Shown here: positions 3,645-9,621 of the stretch, one piece after another
How the letters are laid out: every line of letters starts with the position of its first letter
Numbering within the stretch: the stretch's first letter is position 1
NCBI RefSeq assembly: GCF_014697025.1
Contig: NZ_JACJRC010000001.1
Span: forward strand, 248,001-312,000
DNA: 64,000 nt
Direction of reading: 5' to 3'
Source of the DNA: Alkalinema sp. FACHB-956
Lineage (GTDB): Bacteria > Cyanobacteriota > Cyanobacteriia > Leptolyngbyales > Leptolyngbyaceae
Made by a program: the position numbers and the translations under genes
The notes under the pieces: generated by a model
The model's input: the letters and a program-made list of their open reading frames with translations, nothing else
Database searches by the model: none
Told to the model about the DNA's origin: nothing

Positions 3645-4709
3645 TTAAGCTCCCATCCGCTGAGCATACTGGTTAGCTTTCAAAAAGTCCCCTAATTGAT
3701 AGCATGTCCGTTTGAGATCTTCGAATGCTTGCTTTTGGAGCCTAGGATCCTGTAAGGCTTGAGTCACTGCAAGACGCTGTTCGTAGCAATCAAGCGCCTT
3801 AGTAAATTGTCCAATTCCTTCATAAAAAACCGCCAAGCTTCTCAGGGCCTGTTCTTCAGCCGGGTAATCATTCAGGGATTTGGCCAGGTTCATTCGTTCC
3901 TGGTTGTATTGAATCGCGAGATCGTAATCGCCCATGGAATAGCAGGCAGTTCCTAGGTTTTTCAGCACTTGACCTTCTAGTCGCCGATCGCCAATGCGAC
4001 GGGCTAAGGCTAGTCGATCTTGGTAATACCCGATCGCTTGCTGGTGGTTCCCCATCGCATAGTGGGCATTCCCTAGGTTCTTGAGGATTTGGGCTTCAGT
4101 ATTGACCTCTTGTAGCTCTTGGGCAATTTCTAAAGCTTGCTCTTCGTAAGCAATGGCTTGGTGATAATCGCCCACCGCTTTATGGGCCAGTCCTAGATTA
4201 TTCAATGCAGCCATCTCGCCTCGCCGATCGTGGAGGTTGCGGGCGGTTTCTAGGCTTCGCTCTTGATAGTCGATCGCTTGCTGATAGTCTTCCAGATGGC
4301 GATAGGCGTTCCCCATCGTCCCCAGGACTTTAACCGTACTGAGGTAATTTTCGATCTGCTGGGCAAGACTCAAGCTGCGTTTGGAATAATCGATCGACAT
4401 CGGATAATCACCCAGGTTATAGCAGGACAATCCCAAAGCTGCTAGGGTTCGCTCTTGACCCGCTACATCATTCAATTCCCAATAAAGAGCCTGTGCTTGT
4501 TTCAGGAATGTTATAGCTTGTTGATCTTGACGACTCTGTTGATGCTCAATTCCCTGCTTGAGCAATTGATCAGCTTCTGCCTTACGCAAGTTATGGCTTG
4601 CAGTATCCAGTTCAACGGCGTCCAGCCACGACTCTGGCAAAAGGGTTTCTCGCCCAACCAATGCTCCATGCAAGACCTGCTGGCCAGCATCTTGTCTGCG
4701 ATTGTTCAT
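3645..4709 (-). CDS. TPR repeat protein
   Basis: A 354-aa soluble protein consisting mostly of tetratricopeptide repeats of about 40 residues (Pins/LGN or TPR_12 type). At least six repeats run from about residue 60 to the end, each with the A-helix pattern ALxxLGxAxxxLGDYxxAIxYxExxLxxA. There is no signal peptide, membrane segment or catalytic domain. Such proteins are scaffolds; the partner cannot be told from sequence. It is transcribed alone, with gaps of more than 150 nt on each side. The repeats are diverged from each other, unlike the near-identical LRRs at 29.6-30.8 kb. Confidence 0.8.
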   Translation of the reverse strand: MNNRRQDAGQQVLHGALVGRETLLPESWLDAVELDTASHNLRKAEADQLLKQGIEHQQSRQDQQAITFLKQAQALYWELNDVAGQERTLAALGLSCYNLGDYPMSIDYSKRSLSLAQQIENYLSTVKVLGTMGNAYRHLEDYQQAIDYQERSLETARNLHDRRGEMAALNNLGLAHKAVGDYHQAIAYEEQALEIAQELQEVNTEAQILKNLGNAHYAMGNHQQAIGYYQDRLALARRIGDRRLEGQVLKNLGTACYSMGDYDLAIQYNQERMNLAKSLNDYPAEEQALRSLAVFYEGIGQFTKALDCYEQRLAVTQALQDPRLQKQAFEDLKRTCYQLGDFLKANQYAQRMGA

Positions 4710-4875
4710 GTTGGAAGTCTCCCTATCTGAACAGCCTAAGATATCCTCAGGAAGCGACCCCCTGCGGTATCACACCCATGGTTCAGACCCTAGCGCTTTT
4801 CCGAGTTGTAAGACTCCGTAGGAATTCGGAATTTATTATGGCGACAAAATAGCTCTATTACCAGCAACCGGAATT

Positions 4876-5754
4876 TTACCAACCATGGTGACTGAGCCAG
4901 TTCAAAATCTGTTGATTGACAATTTCCGGGCGATCGTCATGGGGGCAGTGACCAGTCCGCGCAATCGCTTGAAATTCAACTTGAGCGGTCTGTTGCTGAT
5001 AGAGAGTTGATCCTTGAATGGGTGTCCAAGGATCCTCCTCTCCCCAGAGAACTAGCAAGGGAACTGTGATCTGGGGTAATAGATCCCTTGGATGAGGCCC
5101 TGCGGGGGCACTCAAAATAGATGCAAAAACCTTTTGAGCACCAGGGTCACAACTAGGGCGATAAATCAACTCCACCAGCTCTTCAGTAACCGCTTCGGGA
5201 TTGCGATACACCTGCCGGAGACTATTGCGAATGCGGTGTTTTTTGCGAACTTGGTTAAACAAGAATGCGCCAACTAGGTCTGAGCTAGCGAGCTTGGCAA
5301 AGCTACCTAGAATCAGCCGCAGGGGCAGATTTAGCTCATCGGGACGATGGTTCAGCCCTCCGGCAGGATTGAGGAGTACCCCTCCTCGGCTCAGTTCCGG
5401 GGAATCTGCTAACACCATCAGGGTCAGGAGTCCCCCGATCGAATTCCCCACAAAGACCGCTGGAGTTTGAACTAAGTCACGGCAAAAATCCTGAACCAGT
5501 GACCGCCACAATTCCATGGAGTAATCCAAGGCAGGTTTATCCGATGCACCAAACCCTAGGAGATCCAGCGCAAAAACCTGGTACCCAGCACTGGCCAGCA
5601 CTGGAATGTTATTACGCCAATGGCCGATCGATGCACCAAAGCCATGGAGTAGAACAAGCGGCTGGCCCTGACCCACAACGGTGTATTGAATCTGATGACC
5701 TTGCCAGTGCCAAGTCTGGCACTCATAGGAGCGGTTTAAGGGAGCAACTGTCAC
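4876..5754 (-). CDS. Alpha/beta-fold hydrolase
   Basis: Canonical alpha/beta hydrolase of 292 aa. Visible elements are the oxyanion-loop motif LLHGFGASIGHW, the nucleophile elbow GNSIGG (Ser), the acid in GEEDPWTP (Asp) and the catalytic His in RTGHCPHDDRPE near the C-terminus. The overall look resembles the plant/cyanobacterial group that includes pheophytinase- and dephytylase-like enzymes, but substrate cannot be assigned. No signal peptide is seen, so it is probably cytosolic or thylakoid-associated. The gene stands alone between the TPR protein and the tRNA-Gly pair. Confidence 0.8.
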   Translation of the reverse strand: MTVAPLNRSYECQTWHWQGHQIQYTVVGQGQPLVLLHGFGASIGHWRNNIPVLASAGYQVFALDLLGFGASDKPALDYSMELWRSLVQDFCRDLVQTPAVFVGNSIGGLLTLMVLADSPELSRGGVLLNPAGGLNHRPDELNLPLRLILGSFAKLASSDLVGAFLFNQVRKKHRIRNSLRQVYRNPEAVTEELVELIYRPSCDPGAQKVFASILSAPAGPHPRDLLPQITVPLLVLWGEEDPWTPIQGSTLYQQQTAQVEFQAIARTGHCPHDDRPEIVNQQILNWLSHHGW

Positions 5755-5992: not shown

Positions 5993-6031
5993 TTGACAAA
6001 CTTAAGAAAAGCTGAGACTATAAAAAACGTC
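5993..6031 (+). promoter_or_regulatory. tRNA-Gly promoter, copy 1
   Basis: TTGACA at 5993-5998 and TATAAA at 6019-6024, 20 nt apart, which is longer than ideal. The tRNA begins 7 nt after TATAAA, so the transcript probably starts almost at the tRNA 5' end. The same promoter precedes the second copy. Confidence 0.5.
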
Positions 6032-6103
6032 GCGGGTGTAGCTCAGTGGTAGAGCGTCACCTTGCCAAGGTGAATGTCGCGCGTTCGAATCGCGTCACCC
6101 GCT
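6032..6103 (+). tRNA. tRNA-Gly(GCC), copy 1
   Basis: A 72-nt tRNA. The 7-bp acceptor stem GCGGGTG/CACCCGC, the D-arm GCTCAGTGGTAGAGC, the anticodon loop TTGCCAA with anticodon GCC, and the T-arm with GTTCGAAT are all present; the discriminator base is T and no CCA is encoded. It is identical to the copy 395 bp downstream. Confidence 0.95.
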
Positions 6104-6426
6104 TTCTTGGCATACTTACAATACATTAAATGTAAAGGTTTTAGGTCTGTAAATGAATCAGCAGACATAGAACCTTTTCTAAATTATTTAAGGTTTACGG
6201 CACCGTTGGTTTCGTGTTTTCGGGGGTTGTCCTTAAGCAAAATGGCTTCGGCAGCGCGATCGCGCCCGCAAGTAACGTTAGCTCGCGATCGTGTCATCTG
6301 TTTGCCTGCCATGAATCTGTTTGCCTGCCATTAGAATCTAGTCCTTCTCTACTGACCTCCTTTTTTTCAACAATCATTCAAAAAACATTGACAAACTTAA
6401 GAAAAGCTGAGACTATAAAAAACGTC
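6104..6426. other. Spacer between tRNA-Gly copies
   Basis: No gene is supported. It contains a short direct repeat (CTGTTTGCCTGCCAT at 6299 and 6318) and several CGATCG sites. Its last 39 bases are the copied promoter of the second tRNA. Confidence 0.4.
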
Positions 6427-6510
6427 GCGGGTGTAGCTCAGTGGTAGAGCGTCACCTTGCCAAGGTGAATGTCGCGCGTTCGAATCGCGTCACCCGCTTT
6501 CTTGGCATAC
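6388..6510 (+). repeat. 123-bp direct repeat, copy 2 (tRNA-Gly unit)
   Basis: Second copy of the block at 5993-6115, including promoter, tRNA and 3' flank. Confidence 0.9.
6427..6498 (+). tRNA. tRNA-Gly(GCC), copy 2
   Basis: Identical to the tRNA at 6032-6103, with the same TTGACA/TATAAA promoter upstream (6388-6426). Anticodon GCC. Both copies look functional. Confidence 0.95.
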
Positions 6511-6934
6511 CCCATTGTTAATCTGTGATGGGGTTTTAGGTTTATATTTTTGACATCATCATTTCCCTCTACTGCTCATATCTTTTGACAGGGGATCCTC
6601 TTGGATTCAGGATGCCAGCGCGATCGACCCTCTACTTGAAACGGATGTTAAGCCAATATTGCTTTTCTTGATGCTCCTTGGCGATCATCGTTAATATTTC
6701 AGGTAGAAGGTGTCGGAAAATTCGGACGGTTCACCGTGTACTCAAGTCACCGTGTGCTCAAGTCACCGTGTGCTTAAGAATCTCCTAGATAGATCCCTAG
6801 ACATAGAATCCCTAGATCTATCCCTAGACCTAGGGCAACTGTAGCGATAGGGTGACTATCAAGACATCCTGGCTCGTAACCGACGAGCGCATAACTTCGG
6901 TGCTGTGATGCTAACTAGAAGGCTAGGTTAACCT
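6499..6934. other. Intergenic with short tandem repeat
   Basis: No gene seen. A 16-bp unit beginning TCACCGTGT is repeated three times in tandem at 6731-6778 with one or two differences, followed by a degenerate run of CCCTAGA-like words to about 6835. Confidence 0.5.
6731..6778. repeat. 16-bp tandem repeat x3
   Basis: Three adjoining 16-bp units starting at 6731, 6747 and 6763, differing at one or two positions. Intergenic. Confidence 0.85.
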
Positions 6935-7342
6935 GTGTACTCACAGAAGCCCTCAAAAATTGAATTAACAGAAGAATATCCCTGTCCTTGCCGTCGTCGG
7001 GCAAAACTAGTACCGATTACGCTAACTGAAGCCTTTGGCTGTGAACACTGTCAAAATATTTTTGTGGTTGCGCCTGAGGGCGATCAAATTGAACAGTTGT
7101 CAGGACTGTATACGGCTCGACGATCGTGGCGCTGGACAGGAGAACAATGGGCCCTGATTTATCCCGGAAGGGACAGTTACTTGATCACAGTGGCCAGCCT
7201 CCTAGGCGTGTTGCTCCTAGCTTGGATCCTCGTGATTCGCTACTTACCGGCGTCGATCGTGACCTTATTTTGCATTGTTAGTGCTTTCCTATTAATGGTG
7301 GTGCTGCCTGCTGTGAGAAGCTGGTTTAGTAACCGACGATAG
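6935..7342 (+). CDS. Small membrane protein with Cys motif, unknown function
   Basis: A 135-aa protein of the kind conserved in cyanobacteria but without known function. The N-terminal 80 residues contain CPCRRR and CEHC, spaced as a small zinc ribbon. Two hydrophobic segments follow (about 88-104 and 108-127), ending in a basic tail, so it is probably an inner or thylakoid membrane protein with a cytosolic zinc-ribbon head. It starts with GTG; no better start lies upstream. The gene ends 26 nt before the ProA-like gene and may be cotranscribed with it. Confidence 0.65.
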   Translation: MYSQKPSKIELTEEYPCPCRRRAKLVPITLTEAFGCEHCQNIFVVAPEGDQIEQLSGLYTARRSWRWTGEQWALIYPGRDSYLITVASLLGVLLLAWILVIRYLPASIVTLFCIVSAFLLMVVLPAVRSWFSNRR

Positions 7343-7368
7343 GAAAAGATTGCCTTGGTGAGTATGCA

Positions 7369-8589
7369 ATGACCCCCGACATCGCCCTTCAGACAGCCCA
7401 GCAGGCTTCAATTTCCCTAACGGCTGCCCCCATTGTCTTGCGGAACCAGGCTATCCAAGCGATCAGCCAAGCCTTGCGGGCCCATCAAAATGACATTCTA
7501 GAAGCGAATACTCTCGATTTAGAAGCCAGTCGGGAAATGGCCGTTTCTCCCTTACTGTTGGACTGGCTCCGATTAACGCCAGAGCGATTGGAAGGGCTCA
7601 TTCGGATGCTCCAGATGATTTCCTATGCTTCGGATCCATTGGCTTCAGAAGGATTGGCAACCTTGGGGAAAACCCAGCGTTATCGGATTAAAGTGCCTTT
7701 GGGCGTAGTTGCATTAGTGTATGAATCTTTACCCCATTTAGCGGTTTTGGCGACGGGGATGTGCCTCAAAACCGGGAATAGCCTCATTTTGCGAGGTGGT
7801 ACTGAAGCCAGCCATACTAACTGGGCACTGGCGCAAGTCCTGCAATCCGCTATTGCCTCCACTGGACTTCCAGAAAATAGTGTGATTTTGCTTCAAGGTA
7901 ATGAGGGTGGATCAATTCGCGATCTGGTTACCCAGGATCGGAGGGTTCAACTGGTGATTCCCTACGGGCGACCTAGTTGGGTTGCCCAAGTGGTGCAACA
8001 GGCAACCGTTCCCACCATTACTACGGCCATGGGAAATTGCTATCTTTATTGGACGGCATCTGGCACCGTGGAAATGGTACGGGACATCATTTTAGACAGT
8101 CATATCGGTGAACCCGACGCCATCAATGCGATCGAAAAAGTTCTTGTGTCTCGGCAGCATAGCCTACCTTCATTGATTCGCTTATGGGATAGCTTGCGCG
8201 ATCGGGGATACGTAGTCCGGGGCGATGACGCCATGCGCCAGGAAGCGCCGGATTTAGATGCCATGGATGCCAGTGAATGGAAACAATCCTATTTGAGAAA
8301 AATTGTGGCCTTTAAACCCGTTGAAAACTTGGATGAAGCCATTGCCTTTATTAATCAACAAAGTAGCCATCATGCCACTGTTATTGCTACAGATTCTTAC
8401 TCTGCCAGTGAACAATTTCTTCGCACCATAGATAGTGCCTCCATTTACGTCAACGCCTCTCCTCGATTTTGTCGGTGTAATGCCGATGGCCAAATTGCGC
8501 TAGGAATGTCGAATCAGAAAGGGCTACACCGAGGCGCGATTACCTTCGCATCTTTAACCACCAGTCAAACGATCTACCGAGGTGGTTAG
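7369..8589 (+). CDS. ProA-like protein lacking the catalytic Cys
   Basis: Homologous throughout to gamma-glutamyl phosphate reductase (ProA, aldehyde-dehydrogenase superfamily), which makes glutamate semialdehyde for proline synthesis. Family landmarks are visible: KVPLGVVALVYESLP (about 108-122), LKTGNSLILRGGTEA (133-147) and TVPTITTAMGNCY (213-225). In true ProA the catalytic cysteine sits in QRPSVCNA; here the aligned stretch reads GEPDAINA, with Ile252 (codon ATC) in place of Cys. The C-terminal NASPRF segment also departs from the usual NASTRF. The length, 406 aa, is close to normal. It is probably a paralogue that no longer does the redox step, so I give no proA symbol. A canonical proA would be expected elsewhere in the genome. 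Confidence 0.8.
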   Translation: MTPDIALQTAQQASISLTAAPIVLRNQAIQAISQALRAHQNDILEANTLDLEASREMAVSPLLLDWLRLTPERLEGLIRMLQMISYASDPLASEGLATLGKTQRYRIKVPLGVVALVYESLPHLAVLATGMCLKTGNSLILRGGTEASHTNWALAQVLQSAIASTGLPENSVILLQGNEGGSIRDLVTQDRRVQLVIPYGRPSWVAQVVQQATVPTITTAMGNCYLYWTASGTVEMVRDIILDSHIGEPDAINAIEKVLVSRQHSLPSLIRLWDSLRDRGYVVRGDDAMRQEAPDLDAMDASEWKQSYLRKIVAFKPVENLDEAIAFINQQSSHHATVIATDSYSASEQFLRTIDSASIYVNASPRFCRCNADGQIALGMSNQKGLHRGAITFASLTTSQTIYRGG

Positions 8590-8670
8590 CCCAGTTGAGG
8601 CGGTTAGCCAAACTATTGCGCTGGTCATCCAGGTGATCGGCAAGCGGTCTGAGTTTATCCCCCAAAAGAC

Positions 8671-8711
8671 AAACAACCTGGATGGAATCAAGGTTCTCAT
8701 CCAGGCTGTTT
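8671..8711. terminator. Bidirectional terminator-like hairpin
   Basis: A 14-bp stem with one mismatch (8671-8684 with 8698-8711, loop 13) lies between the convergent ProA-like and desaturase genes. AAA/TTT at its base gives weak T-runs on both strands. Confidence 0.6.
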
Positions 8712-8802
8712 AATTCAACCTACATCAAGGGTGCGCTCACATTGGTGGAATGCCAGGGACGGGGAAACCACCGATGTGACTCATTATGAATGTGACTTGT
8801 TA

Positions 8803-9621
8803 CTATTTGGTTTCCGCTAGCTTAACCTTCGTTGCGAGACCCAGCGCTTGCAGCGTACGGATCATCATCCAAGTGAAGTCAATTTCCCACCATTTCAACC
8901 CATGGCGGGCAGAGTATTGGAAAGCGTGGTGGTTGTTGTGCCAGCCTTCACCATAGGTCAACAGCGCTACCCACCAGCAGTTGGTGGAGTTGTCCCCGGC
9001 TTCATAGGTTCGGTAGCCAAATTTATGGGTTGCACTGTTCACAAACCAGGTGCAGTGGTAAACAAAAACCAGCCGAACAAAAATTCCCCACAGAACAAAG
9101 GGTAGCCCCCCGATCGCGTATAGCAGAACACCCAAGGCAATCTGAATAGGGAAGAAGTAGTTATCAAAGAACCGATAAACGGGATCGTCTGCAATATCTT
9201 TGGTGAACTTGGGGACTTCTTTGAGCGCAGGGACTTCATGGAACATCCAACCCATGTGGCTCCACCAGAAGCCTTTATTAGAATCATGGTGATCTACAGA
9301 CTGATCGGAGTACAGGTGATGGTGGCGGTGTAAGCCAATCCACCAAACGGGGCCGCCCTGCATTGCCAAAGTGCCACAGAAAACGAAGAAGTATTCCAAC
9401 CACTTGGGGACTTGGAAACTACGGTGCGCAACCAACCGGTGCCATCCCAGAGTAATACCCAATCCCCCCGTCACCCAGTGCAAAAACAGTGCCAACCCTA
9501 CACCCTGCCAGCTAAAGTTTCCTGGCAAAAATGCGAAGAGTGCTCCGAGGTGGATGATGGAAATAATGGCCACAAAGTGCCACGAAATTCGGAGTTTTTT
9601 TTCAGTTGCGATCGTCGTCAT
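8803..9621 (-). CDS. desC: Acyl-lipid delta-9 desaturase
   Basis: Membrane di-iron fatty acid desaturase of the stearoyl-type family (272 aa, the usual size for cyanobacterial DesC). The three histidine boxes that bind the iron pair are present: HRLVAH (61-66), HRHHH (98-102) and HNNHH (228-232). About four transmembrane helices are seen (residues about 15-34, 40-58, 73-90 and 160-195 as a hairpin). It introduces the first double bond at position 9 of acyl chains on membrane lipids using ferredoxin electrons; this is family knowledge. Position specificity cannot be proved from sequence. Monocistronic, divergent from the Met gamma-lyase-like gene. Confidence 0.9.
   Translation of the reverse strand: MTTIATEKKLRISWHFVAIISIIHLGALFAFLPGNFSWQGVGLALFLHWVTGGLGITLGWHRLVAHRSFQVPKWLEYFFVFCGTLAMQGGPVWWIGLHRHHHLYSDQSVDHHDSNKGFWWSHMGWMFHEVPALKEVPKFTKDIADDPVYRFFDNYFFPIQIALGVLLYAIGGLPFVLWGIFVRLVFVYHCTWFVNSATHKFGYRTYEAGDNSTNCWWVALLTYGEGWHNNHHAFQYSARHGLKWWEIDFTWMMIRTLQALGLATKVKLAETK

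Follow-up and report, generated by a model that had tools for sequence, protein, structure and literature searches.

A cysteine-less relative of ProA in cyanobacteria: a candidate pseudoenzyme encoded beside a zinc-ribbon membrane protein

The closest described relatives of the protein considered here are the ProA proteins of known structure (1o20, 4ghk, 8zok) and the gamma-glutamyl phosphate reductase (GPR) domain of P5CS, with which it shares the same fold over its whole length. It differs from them by the absence of the nucleophile, by an Arg in place of the G5P-binding Asp, by replacement of other invariant residues and by its position in a separate clade. ALDH16A1, a mammalian pseudoenzyme of the ALDH superfamily, also retains the ALDH fold while its catalytic residues are lost; it is considered to work by contacting other proteins and is listed at the cell membrane (PMC10650815). 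It is eukaryotic and belongs to another ALDH family, whereas the present protein goes back to a biosynthetic ProA, with a zinc-ribbon gene as its partner. The trypanosome AdoMetDC prozyme is likewise a dead paralogue kept beside a live relative, but it activates this relative within a heterodimer (PMC6221367), whereas the Cys-less and the canonical ProA are distant lineages. In cyanobacteria, Synechocystis sll0461 ('proA') is probably an orthologue. It has been described as a gamma-glutamyl phosphate reductase in transcript and mutant work (PMC3859321, PMC12386471); its transcripts and those of sll0373 rise under nitrogen deprivation (PMC12386471), and its disruption is cited, at second hand, as raising PHB (PMC3859321, PMC11278661, PMC3766872).

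The window is a stretch of 64,000 nucleotides from Alkalinema sp. FACHB-956. An earlier note had read one of its genes (Table 1) as a ProA paralogue in which Ile252, within EPDAINA, replaces the catalytic cysteine, and the open reading frame, the homology with GPR/ProA, the ATC codon and the alignments to solved structures all agree with this reading. Pfam Aldedh (PF00171) matches the protein with an E value of 1e-14, placing it in the ALDH fold. By sequence, its closest solved structures are GPRs, with Thermotoga maritima 1o20 first (E 4.7e-64), and in the four alignments shown the Cys of the 'xxCN' motif of 1o20, 4ghk, 8zok and 8j0e falls over Ile252. The catalytic C598 of Drosophila P5CS, in the same 'xxCN' context, also has I252 in its place and no counterpart in the window protein.

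Table 1. Features of the locus, in positions of the window
Feature	Coordinates	Strand	Remarks
Cys-less ProA-like protein gene (ALDH/GPR fold)	7369..8589	+	406 aa; start codon ATG; I252 at nucleophile site
Former active-site motif, codons 247-256	8107..8136	+	G-EPDAINA-IE; canonical RPSVCNA or YPAACNA
Codon 252	8122..8124	+	ATC, Ile
Codons 366-369 (RFCR)	8464..8475	+	G5P-binding RFxD in canonical ProA; Asp replaced by Arg in 45/46 family members
Operon partner, zinc-ribbon membrane protein gene	6935..7342	+	135 aa
tRNA gene	6032..6103		71.9 bits
tRNA gene	6427..6498		71.9 bits

A cysteine shifted to a nearby position was looked for by sequence and none was found: the only Cys residues of the window protein are at 132, 224, 368 and 370. 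C224 is equally common in active ProAs (37/38), and C368 and C370, present in fewer than 5 of 46 family members, are no family feature. C132 occurs in 37/46 of the Cys-less family versus 12/38 canonical ProAs; family members also frequently have Cys in columns 171 and 338, where the window protein has none.

The family was examined with a hand-picked set of 46 diverse members, window protein included, and a canonical set of 38 (20 cyanobacterial ProAs, 11 from other classes of the phylum, one gene of genome G047 and six from plasmid records). Site 252 is Val in 41 members, Ile in two, Ala in two and Gln in one, and Cys in none of those examined, versus Cys in 38/38 canonical ProAs. Two further sets, which overlap and are both weighted to close relatives, gave Val 28 and Ile 1 in 29 relatives' loci, and Val 79 and Ile 1 in the best 80 of 376 encoding stretches of a named collection. 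In the cyanobacterial paralogues the site is thus conserved as Val or Ile, rarely Ala or Gln. Sequencing error as the cause of the missing Cys is ruled out, the loss being family-wide. The view of a full-length, well-kept gene devoid of its nucleophile is borne out by these counts, and because such a paralogue has been kept, a role other than that of a GPR is very likely; the note's examples, regulation of proline synthesis and NADPH binding, would be candidates for it. A very divergent member, L150 (G038, 3995-5293), has Gln at the Cys site within the motif IPIYQPLT and still adjoins a zinc-ribbon gene. Another record, L065, is titled Tatlockia sp., which is not a cyanobacterium; its Cys-less ProA shares 95% identity with the one of L052 (Chlorogloea), and the record is probably a mislabelled MAG.

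Residue by residue, the active site has been remodelled. Among positions invariant in the canonical set (38/38), R66 is replaced by W in 44 of the 46 family members, R121 by F, L or Y in all 46, R199 by Y in 44, H225 by Y in 44, K245 by H in 39 and T365 by P in 43, E307 gives way to P or A and E377 to F or A; R180 (37/38 canonical) is G in 32/46. D369, also invariant in canonical ProA, is R in 45 members and a gap in the last one, while R366 is kept in 38/46. In our alignment these two positions match D715 and R712 of Drosophila P5CS, which are reported to bind G5P (PMC11061531). On the other side, 33 canonical-conserved positions are kept in the family; positions kept include P110, G112, E119, K134, N137, G143, C224, P249, N253, E256, W304, N362, G379 and G389. 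The first six we take, from general knowledge of ALDHs, to line the cofactor side. For cofactor binding, the only residue given in the published account is R525, in the REE loop (PMC8963878), which is less conserved in GPRs (PMC11061531), so that the argument for retained cofactor binding rests on general conservation. The proposal that both substrate- and cofactor-side motifs remain is therefore only partly right: presumed cofactor-side residues are mostly kept, but substrate-side residues, D369 among them, are replaced.

The losses are accompanied by new constraints. In 27 columns, a residue found in at least 90% of the Cys-less family occurs in less than 30% of the canonical set; Y199, R201, Y225, W228, S244, H245, D250, V252, K257, P365 and R369 are each found in 39-46 of the 46 members. 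Since family-specific columns have been re-conserved, the protein is remodelled, not decayed. The gene is under purifying selection among close relatives, where dN/dS is 0.059 in the median and 0.26 at most over the 33 of 66 close pairs with dS below 1.2. A decaying pseudogene is accordingly extremely improbable: although the gene of G010 is spread over two frames and that of G226 ends early (370-aa open frame), the other full-length family matches are open among the matches listed and dN/dS is about 0.06. For the family as a whole this explanation is ruled out by conservation. What we find is an enzyme homologue that has lost catalytic residues and is conserved under selection, as expected of a pseudoenzyme.

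The same re-conservation could also be read as the mark of a new enzyme, in which the ALDH fold would carry out a thiol-independent reaction, for instance a direct NADPH-dependent reduction or an acid-base chemistry, with Y199, R201, H245, D250, K257 and R369 as candidate residues. Besides the 27 re-conserved columns, which are not relaxed, the retention of several presumed cofactor-side residues favors this possibility. However, no substrate can be put forward, the nucleophile site carries a hydrophobic residue almost without exception (V, I or A in 45/46, the Q being that of G038) and H245 is His in only 39/46, so that we hold a new enzymatic activity to be rather unlikely.

An AlphaFold2 model built from 43 family sequences has a mean pLDDT of 72.9. 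Values fall below 50 at 247-253, the former active-site loop, and in much of 333-390, so that the model depicts the pocket only at low confidence. The best matches among Foldseek's top 1000 chains are GPRs; 1o20 superposes on the model with Z 38.5 and an rmsd of 5.0 over 394 residues at 29% identity, and the 12 best structural rows are all GPR or P5CS (Z 28-38, 23-29% identity).

The partner gene was said to end 26 nt before the ProA-like gene and to encode a zinc-ribbon membrane protein, and the open reading frames confirm this position, on the same strand. The alignment displays an N-terminal zinc ribbon (CPC...CxxC); after it, two membrane helices are predicted at 80-101 and 106-134, and these are also seen by hydropathy. 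No Pfam or NCBIfam family matches the partner at E 0.001; when four copies were searched at E up to 10, two gave weak below-cut-off matches, which include DUF2396 (E 0.027, G047 copy) and DUF983 (E 1.8, L047). In the best 80 of 376 stretches the zinc-ribbon gene lies upstream on the same strand in 77 loci; of the other three, two begin at a contig end and in L094 the gene lies about 890 nt upstream. Among 386 genomes of the phylum, with family members assigned by score and by hand, 124 carry the Cys-less protein and 121 the zinc-ribbon protein, counted above 60 bits and leaving out two genomes with only a weaker relative. Both genes occur in 118 genomes and are adjacent in 115 of the 124 family-bearing ones, numbers which include related genomes and are not independent; the three non-adjacent cases are G230 and G196, where the matches overlap, and G341, with a gap of 1587 nt. 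Since the gene is upstream in 77/80 loci and adjacent in 115/124 genomes, and since the same pair exists in G047, the zinc-ribbon gene counts as a long-standing operon partner of the ProA-like gene, not as a mere neighbor.

This pairing is not obligate. Six of the 124 genomes, two of them Synechocystis-like (G127, G143), have the ProA-like gene without a zinc-ribbon match, as judged from at most 10 scored candidates per genome, and three genomes have the zinc-ribbon protein only. In genus g78 the partner seems to be decaying: G230 (C1:2285498-2285899) and G196 (C1:2234184-2234558) show zinc-ribbon frames with in-frame stops beside an open Cys-less ProA. The zinc-ribbon frame of G131 has a stop only at its extreme end (129-aa ORF). 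Many genomes encode a second, weaker zinc-ribbon relative of about 52-62 bits, as at G000:C3:59821-60081. Around the pair, ribH-like and psbZ-like genes, named by eye, lie upstream in 35/81 and 21/81 loci respectively. In the window, an Rfam search of 6000-9000 returned two tRNAs and no other known RNA element; these tRNA genes are separated by about 395 nt and have near-identical flanks, which suggests a local duplication.

Which protein then reduces glutamyl phosphate? The host genome (6.16 Mb, 59 contigs) carries ProB and a second ProA match (C6:17754-18932) with Cys (YPAACNAIET), only 31% identical to the window protein. At least one further ProA match is present in 122 of the 124 family-bearing genomes, the Cys having been read in those fetched, and ProB was found in 8/8 genomes tested. 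Family f2 comprises 57 genomes by hand count (1.6-3.7 Mb) with one ProA match each, and the one read at the site, that of G035, has Cys. Canonical ProA was not found in G103 and G329, both single-contig genomes, nor in G027, a draft estimated as 85% complete. G103 and G329 retain ProB, and within their genera canonical ProA is present in 1/2 and 4/5 genomes respectively. TIGR00300, which we take to represent the AgrE-type route, is absent from G103 and present in the other 8 of 9 genomes tested. When the canonical ProA site of G278 was compared with G103, only short pieces outside the gene appeared among the matches listed. The missing gene may have been masked or lost in assembly; alternatively, proline synthesis in these strains could rely on a residual function of the Cys-less copy.

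It is therefore necessary to consider a still-working glutamyl-phosphate reductase, acting via other residues. The window protein passes the cut-off of the curated equivalog PRK00197.1 (NCBIfam; 301 versus 289 bits), no other ProA was found in G103 and G329, and the family has its Cys-rich columns 132, 171 and 338 outside the site. Against this, the nucleophile and the G5P-binding Asp are each lost in 46/46 members, TIGR00407 is missed (262 versus 317 bits), the orthologues L173 and L150 fall below both cut-offs, and a further ProA match accompanies the Cys-less copy nearly everywhere. We judge this explanation very improbable. If a G103-type strain does make proline through the Cys-less protein, the pseudoenzyme reading falls.

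A dead copy might instead serve as a prozyme-like subunit, entering mixed oligomers with canonical ProA or ProB and activating, inhibiting or channelling. Dead paralogues that activate a live partner are known (PMC6221367), the GPR domain acts as a dimer and together with glutamate kinase in P5CS filaments (PMC8963878), and ProB is present wherever it was tested. But canonical ProA does without the paralogue in G049, G286, G417 and apparently in the 57 f2 genomes, the paralogue is found without canonical ProA in G103 and G329, the two lineages are distant, and the neighbor shared family-wide is the zinc-ribbon gene. Such a subunit appears unlikely to us.

The origin of the family is best seen in G047, a single chromosome of 4,659,019 bases which we take to be Gloeobacter violaceus. 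Its one ProA match has the Cys as well as the canonical residues that are replaced in the Cys-less family, and lies directly downstream of the zinc-ribbon gene. A FastTree phylogeny of 84 rows recovers the Cys-less family as a monophyletic group with this ProA as its sister (supports 0.999 and 0.987), and canonical cyanobacterial ProAs form a separate group. In a mixture-model tree of 58 of the 84 rows, a branch with SH-aLRT 98 has both the family and the ProA of G047 on the same side; the long branches L150, L141 and L153 make details within the family unsure. AU tests rejected the grouping of the Cys-less family with canonical cyanobacterial ProA (p 0.00285) as well as that of canonical cyanobacterial ProA, Cys-less family and G047 ProA together (p 6.9e-8). 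A recent duplicate of the host ProA is ruled out by the 31% identity and the former test (p 0.003). These trees indicate that the family comes from a ProA lineage other than that of the host's canonical enzyme. In the simplest history, the gene pair would be ancestral, a different ProA would have taken over and the old copy would have lost catalysis.

We give about even chances to the Cys-less protein being a cyanobacterial pseudoenzyme issued from an ancestral ProA, displaced, deprived of catalysis and now perhaps a membrane-linked ligand sensor. According to this model, early cyanobacteria would have had a zinc-ribbon membrane protein gene followed by an active ProA, as suggested by the G047 synteny and the tree. 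In the other cyanobacteria, glutamyl-phosphate reduction would then have passed to a second lineage of ProA, which is closer to the P5CS type. The old copy has lost its nucleophile and G5P-binding Asp and gained a new set of largely conserved residues, and purifying selection keeps it, usually with its zinc-ribbon partner. Its remodelled cleft may hold a ligand, for which NADP(H) and/or a metabolite of the glutamate family are candidates; the protein would signal through the zinc-ribbon membrane protein, or have it as an anchor, and adjust glutamate/proline or carbon/nitrogen metabolism instead of carrying out the reduction. A regulator or sensor fits best, since three things then find one explanation: the GPR fold is dead but re-conserved, its membrane zinc-ribbon partner is old, and the phenotype concerns carbon storage.

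The phenotype is that of sll0461. In G127, carB and a urtE-like ABC gene are found next to the Cys-bearing ProA, and rps4 and a phytochrome gene next to the Cys-less one (all named by eye). From the Synechocystis gene numbering (presumably sll0370 carB and sll0374 urtE; slr0469 rps4 and slr0473 cph1), sll0373 would be the canonical gene and sll0461 is probably the Cys-less copy, this context being that of a Synechocystis-like genome and not of PCC 6803 itself. One survey of 27 cyanobacterial species tabulates one gene for each (PMC11061531), so its table did not register the Cys-less copy, and the literature searched yielded no description of a Cys-less ProA. A bolder proposal, that the dead ProA and the zinc-ribbon protein form an undescribed membrane-linked module reading NADP(H) or a glutamate-family metabolite, whose loss explains the PHB of the sll0461 mutant, is possible, and we advance it only tentatively.

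Automatic annotation would name this gene proA, since the curated equivalog cut-off is passed; some cyanobacterial genes so labelled may thus not make proline. If sll0461 is the Cys-less copy, published readings based on GPR need re-examination, and the literature already contains a mutant that shows a phenotype. G047 offers a natural control, with the active version of ProA beside the same zinc-ribbon partner. The family would clearly illustrate how an ancestral enzyme of biosynthesis, once displaced, can be retained within the same pair of genes although catalysis was lost.
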